Of a stretch of DNA of 35,237 nt, positions 26,428 through 31,916 are shown piece after piece. The notes beneath the pieces were generated by a model. That model saw only the letters and a list, made by a program, of their open reading frames with translations, had not been told where the DNA came from and did not search any database. Where the stretch lies: IMG/VR virus record IMGVR_UViG_3300035187_002201, positions 1 through 35,237 of that record; one strand, 5' to 3'. Position 1 is the first letter of the stretch; the number at the start of each line of letters is the position of its first letter. Position numbers and translations under genes: made by a program. The DNA is from a virus.

Positions 26428-26857
26428 AGATAAAGCATTTTTGAGCATGGCTGAAATCATGGCTGGTCTTTCACCATGTAGTCGAGCAAAGGTTGGAGCG
26501 GTGATTGTTAAAGGTGATGTGCCCATCATCTCTTCATTCAATGGTATTGCTCGCAAGCAAAGCGGCCTTTGTGGAGGTGCTGATTGTCTTAGAGATAGAT
26601 GTCAAATAGCTAGTGGATCAGAAAGCCAAATAGGTTGCCACCATGCTGAATTTAATGCGATTGCGAATGCTGCTAGAAATGGAATTGCAACTGATGGATG
26701 CTCGATTTATGTAACCGCACCACCTTGTTTAATGTGTGCTAAGTTAATTCATCATGCTGGTATCAAATCAGTTATTTATGAAGATCGAGATAATAGGTGG
26801 ATCTCAACAGGTGAAGAGTATTTGAAAGCCAACGGTATTGATATTTTTAAGATTTAG
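26417..26857 (+). CDS. dCMP / cytidine-type deaminase
   Basis: 146 residues from ATG 26417, overlapping the previous stop by 11 bases. Zinc site: HAEFN with H76 and E78, then APPCLMC with C104 and C107, the standard deoxycytidylate deaminase signature (H-A-E, P-C-x-x-C). Two further clusters (CGGADCLRDRC, residues about 52-62) resemble the second zinc site of T4-like dCMP deaminases. It converts dCMP to dUMP, which ThyX then methylates. It ends the ThyX operon, before a stem-loop terminator. Confidence 0.85.
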   Translation: MSAKDKAFLSMAEIMAGLSPCSRAKVGAVIVKGDVPIISSFNGIARKQSGLCGGADCLRDRCQIASGSESQIGCHHAEFNAIANAARNGIATDGCSIYVTAPPCLMCAKLIHHAGIKSVIYEDRDNRWISTGEEYLKANGIDIFKI

Positions 26858-26862
26858 ATATA

Positions 26863-26929
26863 TCAGCCTCAATCTTAGTCTAAATTCTGAATGATGGGTT
26901 TTGCTCTAAAAGAGAGGCTGAGATTTTTT
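26863..26929 (+). terminator. stem-loop plus T-run at end of the ThyX operon
   Basis: Plus strand TCAGCCTC (26863-26870) pairs with GAGGCTGA (26914-26921), followed by six T residues (26924-26929). The loop is long (43 bases), so it is not a classic tight terminator, but its place 6 bases after the deaminase stop and the T-run suit termination. It belongs to the stem-loop family described below. Confidence 0.5.
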
Positions 26930-26944
26930 ATTTCAGATAGAGTA

Positions 26945-26993
26945 GCCAGCTCTTAAAGTAATTTCCAAACTAAAGTCCTAGGAGAGAGCTGGC
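26945..26993. repeat. stem-loop GCCAGCTCT / AGAGCTGGC
   Basis: A perfect 9-bp inverted repeat (26945-26953 and 26985-26993) around a 31-base loop, with the motif CAGATAGAGTA directly upstream on the plus strand. Nothing codes here. Confidence 0.65.
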
Positions 26994-27044
26994 AAATATT
27001 AAACACACAACAAGCAAAAATTATTTCAGATATATCAGCCTTGA

Positions 27045-27338
27045 TTATTCTTCTTCAATATCAAATGGTTTAAACATTTTTTGATCATCAGGCATAGACA
27101 CATAAACGCCAATAATATCTGATCTATTTAATCTGAAAGCATCTGAAAACACTGGAGTATTTATGCGATCATGGCTTTTAGGTGTTACTTCTGTTACTTC
27201 TATCAAATCACCAGCCTTTAGTTCTGTTTCATCTTTAGCAACTCCTAGAACTTTAAATAATTCTGAATGCATTCTAGTGTCTTCCCATTCTGCTATAACA
27301 TATCCACTCATTGGTCTAAGATAATTTGCTGTTTTCAT
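27045..27338 (-). CDS. small GroES-like protein (possible co-chaperonin), unknown
   Basis: 97 residues from ATG 27338, with GGG six bases upstream; an ATG at 27344 adds two residues. The layout, YLRPMSGYVIAEWED, then LFKVLGVAKDETELKAGDLI, and a C-terminal LNRSDIIGVYV, follows the 10-kDa co-chaperonin pattern (RP at the start, a V-x-x-GD centre, a DI-L/G-V end). Phage T4 gp31 shows that phages can carry such proteins. The pattern is suggestive only. It stands alone between stem-loop arrays, with its own leader hairpin, which suggests a moron expressed by itself. Confidence 0.5.
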   Translation of the reverse strand: MKTANYLRPMSGYVIAEWEDTRMHSELFKVLGVAKDETELKAGDLIEVTEVTPKSHDRINTPVFSDAFRLNRSDIIGVYVSMPDDQKMFKPFDIEEE

Positions 27339-27358
27339 GTTCATCCCTTTCAGATAGA

Positions 27359-27416
27359 TCAGCCTCGATTTGAGTTTAGTATTTTACAAGTTTCTTCACT
27401 GAAAAAAAGAGGCTGA
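27359..27416. repeat. stem-loop TCAGCCTC / GAGGCTGA, second copy
   Basis: The same 8-bp arms as the hairpin at 26863-26921, with a 42-base loop of different sequence. On the minus strand it lies in the leader of the GroES-like gene, 20 bases from its ATG. Confidence 0.65.
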
Positions 27417-27423
27417 GATTAGT

Positions 27424-27475
27424 TCCGCTCAAGGTGCTTCGCATCAACAAATTCACTTCAAAGAGGTGGAGCGGA
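27424..27475. repeat. stem-loop TCCGCTC / GAGCGGA
   Basis: A perfect 7-bp inverted repeat with a 38-base loop directly next to the stem-loop at 27359-27416. Arm length and loop size are close to the other members, with different arm bases. Confidence 0.55.
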
Positions 27476-27482
27476 TAACCTT

Positions 27483-27524
27483 AAACAGATAGCAAGCCTA
27501 TTTAATTTCAATATACTTGAAATT
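27483..27524 (-). repeat. second copy of the initiator gene 3' end (NFKYIEIK-stop)
   Basis: Reads NFKYIEIK-TAG on the minus strand at 27498-27524, in frame and directly after the stop of the endonuclease gene. The last 27 bases match the end of the initiator gene (28323-28349) except at four third-codon positions. Similarity continues past the stop (ATCTGTT-like stretch). Confidence 0.8.
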
Positions 27525-28280
27525 TCATAAAAGATCATAAATCTTAGAAGATGTAAGCCTCCCAACAATCCATCCATCTTGTAAATAATTCAATAAAACT
27601 GACTGATCAACTTTTCTTTGTCTTGTGTTGATGCGATTAAAGTTTAAAGCTTTTGATATAATCTTATCATTTTGTTTTTTGATGATAATTGTTGATGAGC
27701 AGGTTAATCTATATCCGTCAAGCATGTACTTCAGAAGGTCGCAAGAATAAATAAAAATCGTATGATGATCTTTCTTGATCTTCAATTTTTTATTGCCAGC
27801 ATTGTTGTTTCTTCCTTTTCCAATGCCACCTCTTCCACCTGGAACAAGATTATACATGCAACCAAGTTGACTCGAATACCTTTCGATTGAAATGTTATTT
27901 ACTAGGTTTTTTTCTAGATTAAAGGCGTCTTCTGATGATGTACAAAATTTTAAAACAAATCTTAAAAACGACTTTCTACCATACTCTTTAACCGCTTTTT
28001 GAATCTCAATTCCTCCACCTAGATAATTTCTTAATACATATTCCAATGTATACATTGATCTATATTTTCCATTAACACGCTCTAAAACAGTTCTCTTCCC
28101 AATATAGAAAAAGCCATTGGTTTTATTCACAACAAGATAAACATAATGATAGCTGCCATCATCCCCCAAGATTGGAGTGATGTTATCATCAAGGTTGTTG
28201 ATAATGCTTTCAACAAAGATTTGTGCTTCATCATGAATGAAATTGATATCACCTGATGAGTAAGTTGGATTGATTTTCAT
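27525..28280 (-). CDS. GIY-YIG homing endonuclease
   Basis: 251 residues. The nuclease domain begins at about residue 44: YVYLVVNKTNGFFYIGKRT (VYL 47-49 and YIG 59-61 stand for GIY and YIG), then a basic middle and EDAFNLEKNLVNN, whose Glu suits the metal ligand. A YNLVPGGRGGIGKG segment follows, as in phage Seg-type enzymes, and the last about 80 residues are Lys-rich DNA-recognition sequence. AGG is six bases before the ATG. It sits directly downstream of the initiator gene, and a second copy of that gene's end follows its stop, as expected of a mobile endonuclease cassette. It would cut initiator alleles lacking the insertion. Confidence 0.85.
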   Translation of the reverse strand: MKINPTYSSGDINFIHDEAQIFVESIINNLDDNITPILGDDGSYHYVYLVVNKTNGFFYIGKRTVLERVNGKYRSMYTLEYVLRNYLGGGIEIQKAVKEYGRKSFLRFVLKFCTSSEDAFNLEKNLVNNISIERYSSQLGCMYNLVPGGRGGIGKGRNNNAGNKKLKIKKDHHTIFIYSCDLLKYMLDGYRLTCSSTIIIKKQNDKIISKALNFNRINTRQRKVDQSVLLNYLQDGWIVGRLTSSKIYDLL

Positions 28281-28306
28281 GCTTTGCCTTTTTGAAGAGT
28301 GATCAT

Positions 28307-28349
28307 TAACAGATTGATCAGGTTATTTGATTTCAATGTATTTGAAATT
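28307..28349 (-). repeat. first copy of the initiator 3' end and flank (direct repeat of 27483-27524)
   Basis: Contains the true gene end NFKYIEIK-TAA and downstream CTGATCAATCTGTTA. Together with the copy at 27483-27524 it forms direct repeats flanking an endonuclease cassette of about 820 bases. Confidence 0.75.
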
Positions 28350-29774
28350 GTCTTGAATGGTTTTTGAGCATTGATTGATCTGAGATGTTGAGCAGATGAT
28401 GAAATTCATCTGAGGCCTGATCTTAATGATCTCATCAATCTCATTGTGTAGGTATTGCATAAACTTGTTGGTTTGGTTTGAATGCCCATAGATGATCATG
28501 TACTCCACATTTTCCACAAGCAGATCAACCTTGATATCTACAAAGCCTTCATTCTGCTTTGCATATCGATCATAGAGTTGCCTTCTGAGTTGAGCTAGAT
28601 AATCAAAGCTCCCAAAGAAAAGAGAAGGACAGCCAAATCTTCGATCATCTTCATTTTCCATTTGATAAAGAGCATACTTCATGATGCCTACTGCAATATG
28701 CTCAGTTGCTGATTTTGAGCCATGAATGAAGAGCTTTTGATTAACTGGGATTGTTGTTGCATTGACAATCAAATCTCTTTCAGCTTGTGAAACCTTGCCT
28801 TTAAAGTTTTGTAAGCTCATGTCAATCTGACTTTTAAGCAGCAAGACTTTCTCACTGTTTAAAGCTCTGATGATTTTGCATTGCCTTGAAAGCTCAACAT
28901 TGAATTTCTTAGGTAGTGCTTGATGATTGCAATATCCCATCTCTTGATTGATCTTATAATGCTCAGGTGCTTCAGGCCAATTTGCTTTAAGCTTTGCCAC
29001 TGGTCTTTCTCCAATGTGAATGACTTCATCTTTTAGGAGATTTTTCATGTGATCCCATCTAGGAGTATGAGCATCAGAAAAACAAAAATCATTCTCAGAC
29101 TTCACGCGTGCGTCTTGCTTAATTATAGTTTCTTTCTCTCTTAATAATGTATGGTCAAAATTGCCTAACAATTCGGCATTTTTGCCTAACAATTCGGCAT
29201 TTTTGTCCATAGGTATGTCCATTTTTGTCCATAGGGTATGGACATTTTTGTCCATAGGGGTATGGACATTTTTGCCTATTAAATCGGCGTTTTTGTCCAT
29301 AGGGGTAACAGTCGCATTTAACACATGATCTAAGACTGATTGAGCAATTTCTTTGATCATCAAATTGCTTGCTTGAGGTGGCAAAATATCTTGATTGACC
29401 TCATTGAAATCAGCCCATGATTTCCAATATCTCAAGATCAATTTTGATGTAAAGCACCAAGTATTGCTCTCATACTCTTTCTTGCTCTCATCCTTCTCAG
29501 TTGGCTTTGTGTTGTTCTCTTTGTGCAAAAAGCCATGCTCGCAAAGTGTTTGACATGTTCTTCTGATCGTTCGTTCATTGATACCTAGTGATCTTGAAAT
29601 CTCAGAATATCTTTGCTTGATTGATAGATTTTTGAGATTGGGATAAACATCATAAAGCTCTAAAAGCAACATGATAACTCTTTGGCCGTTGGGAATGGAT
29701 CCCATTGTCTTGCACCTGTTAATATTGGAGGCAACGCCCCAGCTGGTAACATTCTTTGAAAATAACTTGCTCAT
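28323..29774 (-). CDS. replication initiator protein with internal iteron array
   Basis: 483 residues. The N terminus has a winged helix-turn-helix (NLSIKQRYSEISRSLGINER, RTIRRTCQTLCEHGFLHKEN), the fold used by many phage and plasmid initiators. Residues about 155-205 are a low-complexity repeat (PMDKNADLIGKNVHT, PMDKNVHT, KMDIPMDKNAELLGKNAEL) encoded by the iteron array, as in lambda O. The C-terminal half is a mixed domain (FGCPSLFFGSFDYLAQLRRQ, NFIICSTSQINQ) that likely contacts the DnaB-type helicase. AGGAG lies four bases before the ATG. It is transcribed divergently from the helicase operon. Family recognition is by architecture. Confidence 0.7.
   Translation of the reverse strand: MSKLFSKNVTSWGVASNINRCKTMGSIPNGQRVIMLLLELYDVYPNLKNLSIKQRYSEISRSLGINERTIRRTCQTLCEHGFLHKENNTKPTEKDESKKEYESNTWCFTSKLILRYWKSWADFNEVNQDILPPQASNLMIKEIAQSVLDHVLNATVTPMDKNADLIGKNVHTPMDKNVHTLWTKMDIPMDKNAELLGKNAELLGNFDHTLLREKETIIKQDARVKSENDFCFSDAHTPRWDHMKNLLKDEVIHIGERPVAKLKANWPEAPEHYKINQEMGYCNHQALPKKFNVELSRQCKIIRALNSEKVLLLKSQIDMSLQNFKGKVSQAERDLIVNATTIPVNQKLFIHGSKSATEHIAVGIMKYALYQMENEDDRRFGCPSLFFGSFDYLAQLRRQLYDRYAKQNEGFVDIKVDLLVENVEYMIIYGHSNQTNKFMQYLHNEIDEIIKIRPQMNFIICSTSQINQCSKTIQDNFKYIEIK
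29161..29310. other. putative replication origin: seven iterons inside the initiator gene
   Basis: Units starting TTGCC or TTGTCC at 29161, 29182, 29203, 29225, 29248, 29272 and 29293; spacings 21, 21, 22, 23, 24, 21. The two TGCC units at 29161 and 29182 are identical. Units at 29225 and 29248 are TGTCCATA-n3/4-TATGGACA dyads; TGCC units end GGCA or GGCG. Each is separated by a T5 stretch. The three odd lengths add to 69 bases, preserving the reading frame. Placement in the initiator gene matches lambdoid origins. Confidence 0.65.
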
Positions 29775-29893: not shown

Positions 29894-30139
29894 ATGACAA
29901 AGACAAATATCAAAATTAAGGAGCTAGTTTATCTAGGCTTCACCGTTTCAGATCTAGCTTTAAAACTCGGAGTTACTAGACAATGCATGTATAACTATCT
30001 TGATGATGAATATAGTTGCAAGCTCGCAATCGCAAGAAAACTTGAGGCAATCACAGGGATCAGTCATCAATTCTTTATGTATCCAGTGCCAACAGCATTG
30101 CAATTCTTACCAGGAGCAAATAACAATGGCACTAAGTGA
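29894..30139 (+). CDS. Cro/XRE-like HTH regulator
   Basis: 81 residues from ATG 29894 (GGAG five bases upstream; ATG 29891 is too close to the ribosome site). The helix-turn-helix is VSDLALKLGVTRQCMYNYLD (about residues 16-35), followed by KLAIARKLEAITGIS, the usual XRE helices. It is the first gene to the right of the symmetric promoter pair, like Cro, and may repress both promoters through the ATTTAC-type sequences. It overlaps the helicase start by 14 bases. Confidence 0.75.
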   Translation: MTKTNIKIKELVYLGFTVSDLALKLGVTRQCMYNYLDDEYSCKLAIARKLEAITGISHQFFMYPVPTALQFLPGANNNGTK

Positions 30140-31916
30140 ATCAGAAATTGCTCATTGGAGAGGCTTCAACAATTGGCAAGTGGTTTCAAAGCAATATGAA
30201 ATCACTGATCGCAATAGATGGAATAATGAATATGCTGAATGGAGAGCAAAGAATGATGCTATCAGTGCTAAAAATCCATTAAGCCATACTGAATTTCAAA
30301 GGGATTATGCTCATCTATTGCAATCAAAGAATGGTACTGTGCCACTGATAGAGAATAAGCCTGCTCAACCTGATCCAATGCTCAAGGCATCTCAAAGGTT
30401 TGATTATAACATGCAAAAGCTTTGCTCTGTCTATGGCTACTTTTCAGAGGCAGATCTTCGCATTCCATTTATCAGAGCAGCAAGACTTATCAAAACTACA
30501 TGGCTTCAATATGGTCAAGTAACAGAAAATAAAGATGAGCCTCTCTTTATCAGATCAAATCCCAATGATCCAAATAGTGAGCTTGTTTATAATACATATC
30601 GAGCAAAGCTATCAGGCCTTAGAGATCATCCAGCTAAGGATTGCATCTTTAGAATGATCACAAATGAAGATATCTTTTTCAATGATACTTTGATCGCTAT
30701 TTTTAGAGTTGCCAAGAGCTTGCGAGCTCAAAATAAAATAGTTGATCTATGCTCTGTTCATGATGAATATCGTATGCAATTTGATGTGCTAAAAAAAGAC
30801 TTGCCACAATTGACTGATGTTGATTGGATTGCTGATGTACTGACAACAATTGAATATAACTATGATACTTTATCAAGTGAAATCTTTGTTGAAGAAACGG
30901 TCAATCAGCATATCAAGTGGTATATTGCAGCAAGGACAAGTTATCTTGATGATCTTAAGGCTCAGCTATTAAGGCAAGGCATCTCTTTGGCATGGCTAGA
31001 CGAAAACTATCAAAAGCATATGCAAGTATTAAAAGCGATGACTCCCATGAAGATTGAGAGTTTCAGTAGTCAAATTGACGAGGCTTTAAGCATGATGGAG
31101 AATAGGTCTGATGGCATCAGCACCGATCTAAAAGACCTCGACCACATGATGAAACTTAGGAATGGATGTCTTTATTATATCGGAGGTCGTCCAGGTATGG
31201 GAAAGACGGCGTTGTCATTGCATTTTCTTTTGCTCTCCCAATTGCGAGATCAGAGAAAAAAGGTTTTATTCTTTAGCCTTGAGATGAGCAAAGAGCAATT
31301 GATCAATCGATTGATTTGCTCAGTTGGAGGCATCAACGCCAATATGCTTAAAGACAAAAGATTAAGCGATTTAGATCAAGATACTTTTGAGCAATACTAT
31401 TTAGCAGCTAAAGCGATTAAGGCCTTAGACATAACTTTGATTGATCAAGGCGTTGATACAATCACATCTCTTCAATCAACTTGTGAGCAAGTGAAAGATA
31501 GGGATAAGAATTTAGGCTTGATCGTAGTTGACTATCTCCAATTGTTAAAGGGATCAGGACAAAATAAAAACCAAATCAGAGAGCAAGAAGTCAGTGAGAT
31601 CAGCAGAGCCTTAAAGCTTCTTGCCAAGAAGTGCGATTGTCCAGTGATTTGCTTAACTCAGCTTAATCGTCAAGTCGAGGGGAGACATGAAAAGAGACCA
31701 AGCCTAAGCGATCTTAGAGAGTCAGGATCACTTGAGCAAGATGCTGATGCTGTGCTTATGCTTTTTAGAGCTGACTATTATGACAAGGATGCATCGCCAA
31801 ACCTAGAGATTATCGTTGCAAAGAATAGGCATGGCTCATTGGGAACAGCAACAGTTGAATTTGATAGAGAAACTCAAAGAATTTCAGATCTCCCATTTTC
31901 TCAGACTAAATGGTAA
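30126..31916 (+). CDS. dnaB: replicative DNA helicase, DnaB family, with N-terminal extension
   Basis: 596 residues from ATG 30126 (AGGAG upstream). Walker A GGRPGMGKT (353-361), then FFSLEMSKEQLINRL, Walker B LIVVDYLQLL, and SDLRESGSLEQDADAVLML are standard DnaB C-terminal motifs. The DnaB N-terminal helical domain begins only at about residue 165; E. coli DnaB is 471 residues with Walker A near 231, so this protein carries about 120-165 extra N-terminal residues of unknown role (aromatic and charged, WRGFNNWQVV, NRWNNEYAEW). It should be loaded by the initiator encoded across the promoter. Confidence 0.9.
   Translation: MALSESEIAHWRGFNNWQVVSKQYEITDRNRWNNEYAEWRAKNDAISAKNPLSHTEFQRDYAHLLQSKNGTVPLIENKPAQPDPMLKASQRFDYNMQKLCSVYGYFSEADLRIPFIRAARLIKTTWLQYGQVTENKDEPLFIRSNPNDPNSELVYNTYRAKLSGLRDHPAKDCIFRMITNEDIFFNDTLIAIFRVAKSLRAQNKIVDLCSVHDEYRMQFDVLKKDLPQLTDVDWIADVLTTIEYNYDTLSSEIFVEETVNQHIKWYIAARTSYLDDLKAQLLRQGISLAWLDENYQKHMQVLKAMTPMKIESFSSQIDEALSMMENRSDGISTDLKDLDHMMKLRNGCLYYIGGRPGMGKTALSLHFLLLSQLRDQRKKVLFFSLEMSKEQLINRLICSVGGINANMLKDKRLSDLDQDTFEQYYLAAKAIKALDITLIDQGVDTITSLQSTCEQVKDRDKNLGLIVVDYLQLLKGSGQNKNQIREQEVSEISRALKLLAKKCDCPVICLTQLNRQVEGRHEKRPSLSDLRESGSLEQDADAVLMLFRADYYDKDASPNLEIIVAKNRHGSLGTATVEFDRETQRISDLPFSQTKW

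Follow-up and report, generated by a model that had tools for sequence, protein, structure and literature searches.

Why does a phage replication initiator gene end twice, once before and once after a homing endonuclease gene, and which of the two ends is its own? The question is raised by a virus record of 35,237 bases (IMGVR_UViG_3300035187_002201, positions 1 to 35,237), analyzed here over its whole length and referred to as the window. We consider it probable that a free-standing GIY-YIG homing endonuclease cassette has re-supplied the gene end that it displaced, in the way of the mORFs of fungal mitochondria. At the level of sequence, comparison with relatives establishes where the insertion lies, which of the tails is native, that the cassette is absent from relatives, and that the locus is a mosaic.

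Two ends of an initiator gene and the endonuclease between them

The initiator gene (28323..29774, minus strand; 483 aa, hereafter type A) ends in NFKYIEIK-TAA and is divergent from a DnaB-like helicase gene (30000-31916, plus strand). It is labeled an O-like replication initiator because of this place beside the helicase gene and because of weak profile matches (PHROG replication initiation O-like, E = 3.7e-4; Pfam HTH_36, E = 0.0035, below the cutoff). Seven relatives were found in viral_contigs, at 80-96% over the best segment, and none was found in named phage records. The stretch 29161-29303 (minus strand) of the gene encodes repeated PMDKN, LIGKN and LLGKN stretches, the sequence and arrangement of which vary among relatives such as L003 and L007.

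The tail of this gene is present in two copies. The proximal copy (28349-28323, minus strand), AATTTCAAATACATTGAAATCAAATAA, encodes NFKYIEIK-TAA, and the distal copy (27524-27498, minus strand), AATTTCAAGTATATTGAAATTAAATAG, encodes NFKYIEIK-TAG in frame straight after the endonuclease TGA. They are equal at 23 of 27 bases, and all four differences fall at third codon positions, as claimed in the preliminary description of this DNA, which on re-reading also proved right in the coordinates, frame and sequences of both tails. When the whole window was scanned without gaps on both strands, the next best matches to the tail were 19/27 (two places) and 18/27 (three places); with the next best place at only 19/27, the pair is not a matter of chance. 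The same description held that similarity extends past the stop. This stands in part: the BLAST match falls one base short of the end of the stop codon, and what recurs beyond is a spaced promoter-like element, which past the proximal stop has TGTTAA instead of TGTTTAA.

A leader of 42 bases (28281..28322, minus strand) and the endonuclease gene (27525..28280, minus strand; 251 aa) lie between the tails. The protein matches Pfam PF19835 (SegE_GIY-YIG) with 29.6 bits at a cutoff of 25, PF01541 with 22 bits, just under the cutoff of 22.6, and the PHROG homing endonuclease family phrog_314 (E = 3e-17). A structure model built from nine sequences (mean pLDDT 82.6) ranked the I-TevI catalytic domain (1ln0_B) first, with a middling Z of 6.5 over 86 of 94 residues and an rmsd of 3.0; the next row had a Z of 2.4. 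A plain Foldseek search with the model returned nothing at E <= 0.001, and a PDB sequence search returned 0 matches. As read from the alignment, Y48, I60, G61 and N144 are invariant in all nine endonucleases and a glutamate is present in eight; a tyrosine is among the catalytic residues of GIY-YIG enzymes. Arginine, glutamate and asparagine are further catalytic residues named in passages of PMC2988022, and a fixed catalytic arginine could not be assigned in the nine-sequence alignment.

The endonuclease matches 294 named-phage records, all at <60% identity and none covering 80% of it; among the best 20 of the 294 the coverage is at most 49%. Close named-phage relatives were likewise not found for the portal (18 records) and the helicase (1363 records), all of which were at <60%. 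In bacterial genomes, 193 stretches match the endonuclease patterns and none is a relative. No Rfam family matches at gathering score anywhere in the window, and in 27300-28600 there are only four weak, unrelated matches at E <= 1. Judged from its sequence surroundings, the gene is a free-standing homing endonuclease gene: no intron match surrounds it, and empty alleles exist.

Empty alleles, the native end and the insertion point

The preliminary description predicted a single gene end in relatives that lack the endonuclease. All six endonuclease-free type-A records (L002, L003 and L005-L008) bear this out. They are six of the eight type-A initiator records, the window counted, and their single ends join straight to sequence of the kind found after the distal copy of the window. 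None of the six has both tails. Their tails carry AAG, TAT or TCT, and TAG, as does the distal copy, where the proximal copy has AAA, TAC and TAA. With six of six empty alleles resembling the distal copy, the earlier proposal that this copy is native and the proximal one imported or recoded holds; the six amount to about four lineages, because L005-L007 are near-identical.

A degenerate pattern of the tail matched nine records in viral_contigs, once in each; two matches occur in the window alone. Six of these records are empty, two (L009 and L010) hold remnants behind the same endonuclease, and one (L004, which is also L038) has the recoded tail. L004 is thus the sole other owner found of the recoded tail (1/9), and it bears an endonuclease of the same family; an endonuclease-free owner was not found among the nine.

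The two tails change allegiance at the same base. When the final 60 bases are compared with L008 and L003, the first mismatch of the proximal copy comes at -28, counted from the gene end (position 28350): it has GAC for GAA, a change that is not synonymous (E to D). The distal copy begins to match the empty alleles at this same base, -28, and the match runs on downstream; 27525-26928 of the window is 97.8% identical to L008. The recoded and putatively imported stretch, the final 28 bases of the initiator, accordingly spans 28323..28350 (minus strand), and the displaced native end is a 28-nt remnant at 27498..27525 (minus strand), the first base of which (27525) is common to the endonuclease TGA. 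When 825 bp are deleted at -28, the joined sequence agrees with L008 and with L002 at 194/200 positions, for each the single best of 46 junctions. The ungapped test against L003, which carries a small downstream length difference, gave its best value of 174/200 at -35 and elsewhere and 173 at -28, which is not singled out.

The divergence of the tail depends on the allele with which it is compared. Over the final 30 nt the window differs from L003 at four positions, against 10 over the preceding 600 nt (0.5 per 30); for L002 the counts are likewise four, and 12 upstream (0.6 per 30). These two empty alleles have 0 differences from each other in the last 30 nt. Against L008 the four tail differences are hardly an excess over background, since there are 40 in about 530 nt upstream. 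A type-C locus has the same pattern on a smaller scale, with TTGAAATCAAGTAA on the left, TTGAAATCAAATAG on the right and TTGAAATCAAATAG in the empty L093, and only two tail changes. Recoding as a general rule was rejected, on the L008 comparison and on a pair of alleles with a PAPS-reductase gene, whose five synonymous tail changes in 30 are not above the gene background of 5.65 per 30. Type-B junctions could not be placed because there is no close empty relative (L083 is at 75%).

We propose that an 825 bp cassette entered the initiator gene at a single point, -28 from its end. It would have consisted of the short leader, the endonuclease gene and, ahead of them, a recoded version of the 28 final bases that it displaced. 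The native gene end would thereby have been stranded downstream, and with it the promoter-like element that marks the operon end. In mixed infections the enzyme would cut empty initiator ends, and repair of the break would copy the cassette into the cut allele. The recoded tail would keep the initiator whole and may make the occupied allele a poorer target. Resistance through recoding is a guess, because TTGAAAT is kept in the recoded type-A tail.

Mosaic history and other occupants of the operon end

The first 180 nt of the endonuclease gene (28101..28280, minus strand) form a conserved block. Among eight genes of this first family, DNA identity is 73-100% in each of the first three 60-nt bins and drops abruptly to 40-68% in the fourth for every pair except two close ones. 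From this alignment, the block is likely to be a crossover region. In coordinates relative to the endonuclease start, no difference separates the window from L014/L004 between -209 and +116, and a single one separates it from L009 between +80 and +912. The history first proposed, with a putative donor phage, is supported in its outline and was too simple in its detail: the left half is common to L004 and the right half to L009.

The leader points to an earlier host gene. In its final 24 bases (28281-28304) it is similar to the end of the coding sequence of type-B initiators, with a score against the tail of L015 that was reached by 0/2000 random 24-mers from the window and a score against that of L019 reached by 2/2000. 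The leader is the same in L014/L004 and similar in L030. This likeness suggests that the cassette once stood behind a type-B initiator. L009 retains just 40 bases before its endonuclease, which we infer to be the end of a type-B initiator because 37 of the 40 match L019; the contig stops short of the region in question, and no type-A initiator turned up in it.

These shared segments also allow the two-tail arrangement to have been assembled by recombination, with the duplicate resulting from two separate insertions. We regard this as rather unlikely, and as a variant of homing rather than its opposite. One parent would have been L004-like, with the recoded tail and a different endonuclease, and the other L009-like, with the endonuclease of the window behind a type-B-like end and then the type-A remnant; they would have crossed inside the shared 5' block. 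The identities to the left and right, which overlap from +80 to +116, agree with such a cross, as does the position of the block as the most conserved part of the eight genes. Moreover, L004 has the recoded tail but lacks a type-A remnant, which leaves room for the window to have been joined from two halves by recombination instead of being the original insertion. However, L004 and L009 could equally derive from a window-like ancestor by recombination, and both breakpoints lie at -28, which is expected of one insertion and would be a coincidence for two. Because both fall on the same base, one insertion is the history that we favor; L004 and L009 would then have arisen later by recombination, although the reverse order is also conceivable.

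Insertion into this initiator, as the preliminary description had it, is supported, but it is not peculiar to type A: the same operon end is occupied behind three initiator types. The 22 related endonuclease loci comprise 13 behind a type-B initiator end, three behind a type-C initiator, one behind a type-A initiator (L004), one behind a PAPS-reductase gene (L030), and one (L017) behind an HTH gene that itself lies behind another type-A-like initiator. Three (L009, L010 and L018) have no readable upstream gene; in L010 and L018 the contig breaks off within the endonuclease gene. Types B and C are about 22-24% identical to type A over the longest alignments. We surveyed 16 type-B initiator loci, six of them on contigs already known from the endonuclease loci, and all seven type-C loci, and empty ends exist for type B (L083) and type C (L093, whose contig ends 48 bases past the stop). 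Under the proposed homing insertion, the same family would have reached the ends of the three initiator types, probably via recombination through the shared endonuclease 5' block.

The operon end has other occupants. A second endonuclease-like family lies behind type C in L089, L090 and L092 and ends in KIE(R/S)K-stop, which resembles the displaced KIEIK-stop. Its genes in L089 (4378-5490) and L092 (4354-5520) match phrog_314 weakly (E = 5e-4) and Pfam not at all, and carry an in-frame array of ADEAVK/ADETVK-like repeats, the number of which varies between phages. The PAPS-reductase gene occupies the same place without an endonuclease in L079 and L080 and with one in L030/L084. This PAPS-reductase-like gene, at 4329-5201 in L079 and 4298-5170 in L084, has TGAAATGAATTTA on its left side in L084 and TAAAATGAATTTA in L079, with TGAAATAAATTTA on its right side in L079; from these sequences it looks as if flanked by copies of the promoter-like element.

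In the window, the promoter-like element TTGAAAT-N-TGTTTAA is at 27480..27511 (minus strand). The window has two matches, where 0.29 are expected in shuffles. Besides the one at 27480..27511, an element lies at 26998-27029, and the element also recurs elsewhere in these phage genomes. In the 21 alleles compared, the operon end carries it or a close variant. There the last operon gene terminates at (T/A)TGAAA or no more than about 14 bases from it, and TGTTTAA or something close to it comes next at a spacing that hardly varies. As the search pattern was permissive, the presence of the element is less telling than its place. A sigma-70 consensus scan of 26850-28420 found no match at the element and fewer sites than in shuffles (3 vs 7.7), so that the term promoter-like refers solely to place and recurrence.

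A hairpin (27424..27475, minus strand) follows directly behind the element. Its stem letters vary and the pairing is kept: across 10 sequences, 3/7 predicted pairs have changed on both sides, with the co-changing stems CCGCTC/GAGCGG, CTGCTC/GAGCAG and CAGCTC/GAGCTG. A GCG(A/T)AG box accompanies the hairpin in 9/10 aligned sequences, and the hairpin has no Rfam match at gathering score. Hairpins of the same kind lie behind the elements of L002, L007, L011, L015, L017, L019, L030, L079 and L083.

The variety of occupants suggests a different account, in which the operon end serves as a site for cassettes in general: units with their own TTGAAAT promoter-like element would be swapped by recombination between repeated elements, with the endonuclease as just one passenger. 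A PAPS-reductase gene that comes alone or with an endonuclease, the HTH gene of L017 and the second endonuclease-like family, all at one place, would fit such a site, as would the fact that inserts end at or near the promoter-like element. It is nevertheless an unlikely substitute for homing: by itself it leaves the recoded 28-base tail unexplained, half of this tail lies upstream of the element, and endonucleases are most of the inserts observed.

Two further accounts fare much worse. Had the initiator end been duplicated locally, with the endonuclease inserted between the copies later and the upstream copy drifting, both copies would encode the same eight residues, as they do; this is improbable, given that none of the endonuclease-free type-A records has two tails and that the differences are mostly in the gene-attached copy and not in the free one. 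Hardly credible is the intron-like alternative of the preliminary description, or an intein, in which RNA or protein would lose the insert and the distal copy would be the true end: the distal copy does continue the endonuclease frame past the TGA, but the proximal copy, stop codon included, already completes the gene, stops precede the distal copy, and Rfam yields no intron family.

Relation to known homing systems

The homing insertion that we favor has counterparts in mitochondria. According to the passages on mORFs in PMC3630166, Glomus atp6, atp9, cox2 and nad3 carry an inserted C-terminal end, an endonuclease ORF and, downstream, the native end matching relatives; Allomyces atp6 is cited there as the first reported case. 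As in those genes, the endonuclease ORF of the window comes after the gene, which has been joined to an inserted C-terminal end; it is the native end downstream that matches relatives, and the differences between the ends are largely synonymous. Unlike in the mORFs described in these passages, the host gene is a phage replication initiator and the family recurs behind three divergent initiators. The tail is also shorter, 28 bp against 51-238 bp in the mORF table of the same source, and the phage case is known from sequence alone. Duplications of the C-termini of cob and atp6 with endonuclease ORFs nearby appear in passages of PMC6279837.

Among phages, the locus resembles the T4 Seg endonucleases and intronless homing, as treated in passages of PMC2988022, in having a free-standing GIY-YIG gene beside phage genes, a patchy distribution and co-conversion of flanks; SegE is the nearest Pfam family here. 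Free-standing enzymes of the T4 type cut hundreds to thousands of bp from their own gene (PMC2988022, same passages), whereas the insertion here lies at the altered tail. The text of this T4 homing review contains neither 'duplicat' nor 'remnant'. There is also a likeness to the HEG islands and HEG domain shuffling in passages of PMC10448857, with endonucleases at the borders of exchange next to essential genes and with swapped domains; those passages describe no displaced gene end in a HEG-bounded phage exchange. 'Duplicat' is likewise absent from the portions of PMC12724721 covered here. Across open-licence literature (titles, the starts of abstracts, and passages), we found the mitochondrial cases and no phage case of a tail-replacing endonuclease.

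A wider reading can be offered tentatively. Within one phage group, the locus may be part of a modular tail-replacing homing system that lives on initiator genes of three classes (about 22% identical in their aligned parts), at the 3' end of each. In this system the constant endonuclease 5' block would serve as a crossover handle, the rest of the gene would be swapped, the end of the upstream gene would be rewritten, and cargo such as PAPS reductase would share the site. If true, such a system would drive the replacement of whole initiator types between phages.

Tail-restoring homing is known from fungal mitochondria, and the same logic now appears in phages, where alleles of three kinds are available: empty, occupied and half-shared (recombinant). 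This arrangement suggests a way in which a selfish endonuclease may settle at the end of a replication gene without costing its carrier much. The alleles offer a natural set of sites for asking whether silent recoding shields a carrier from its own endonuclease, and they point to a link between homing and the exchange of whole replication initiators.
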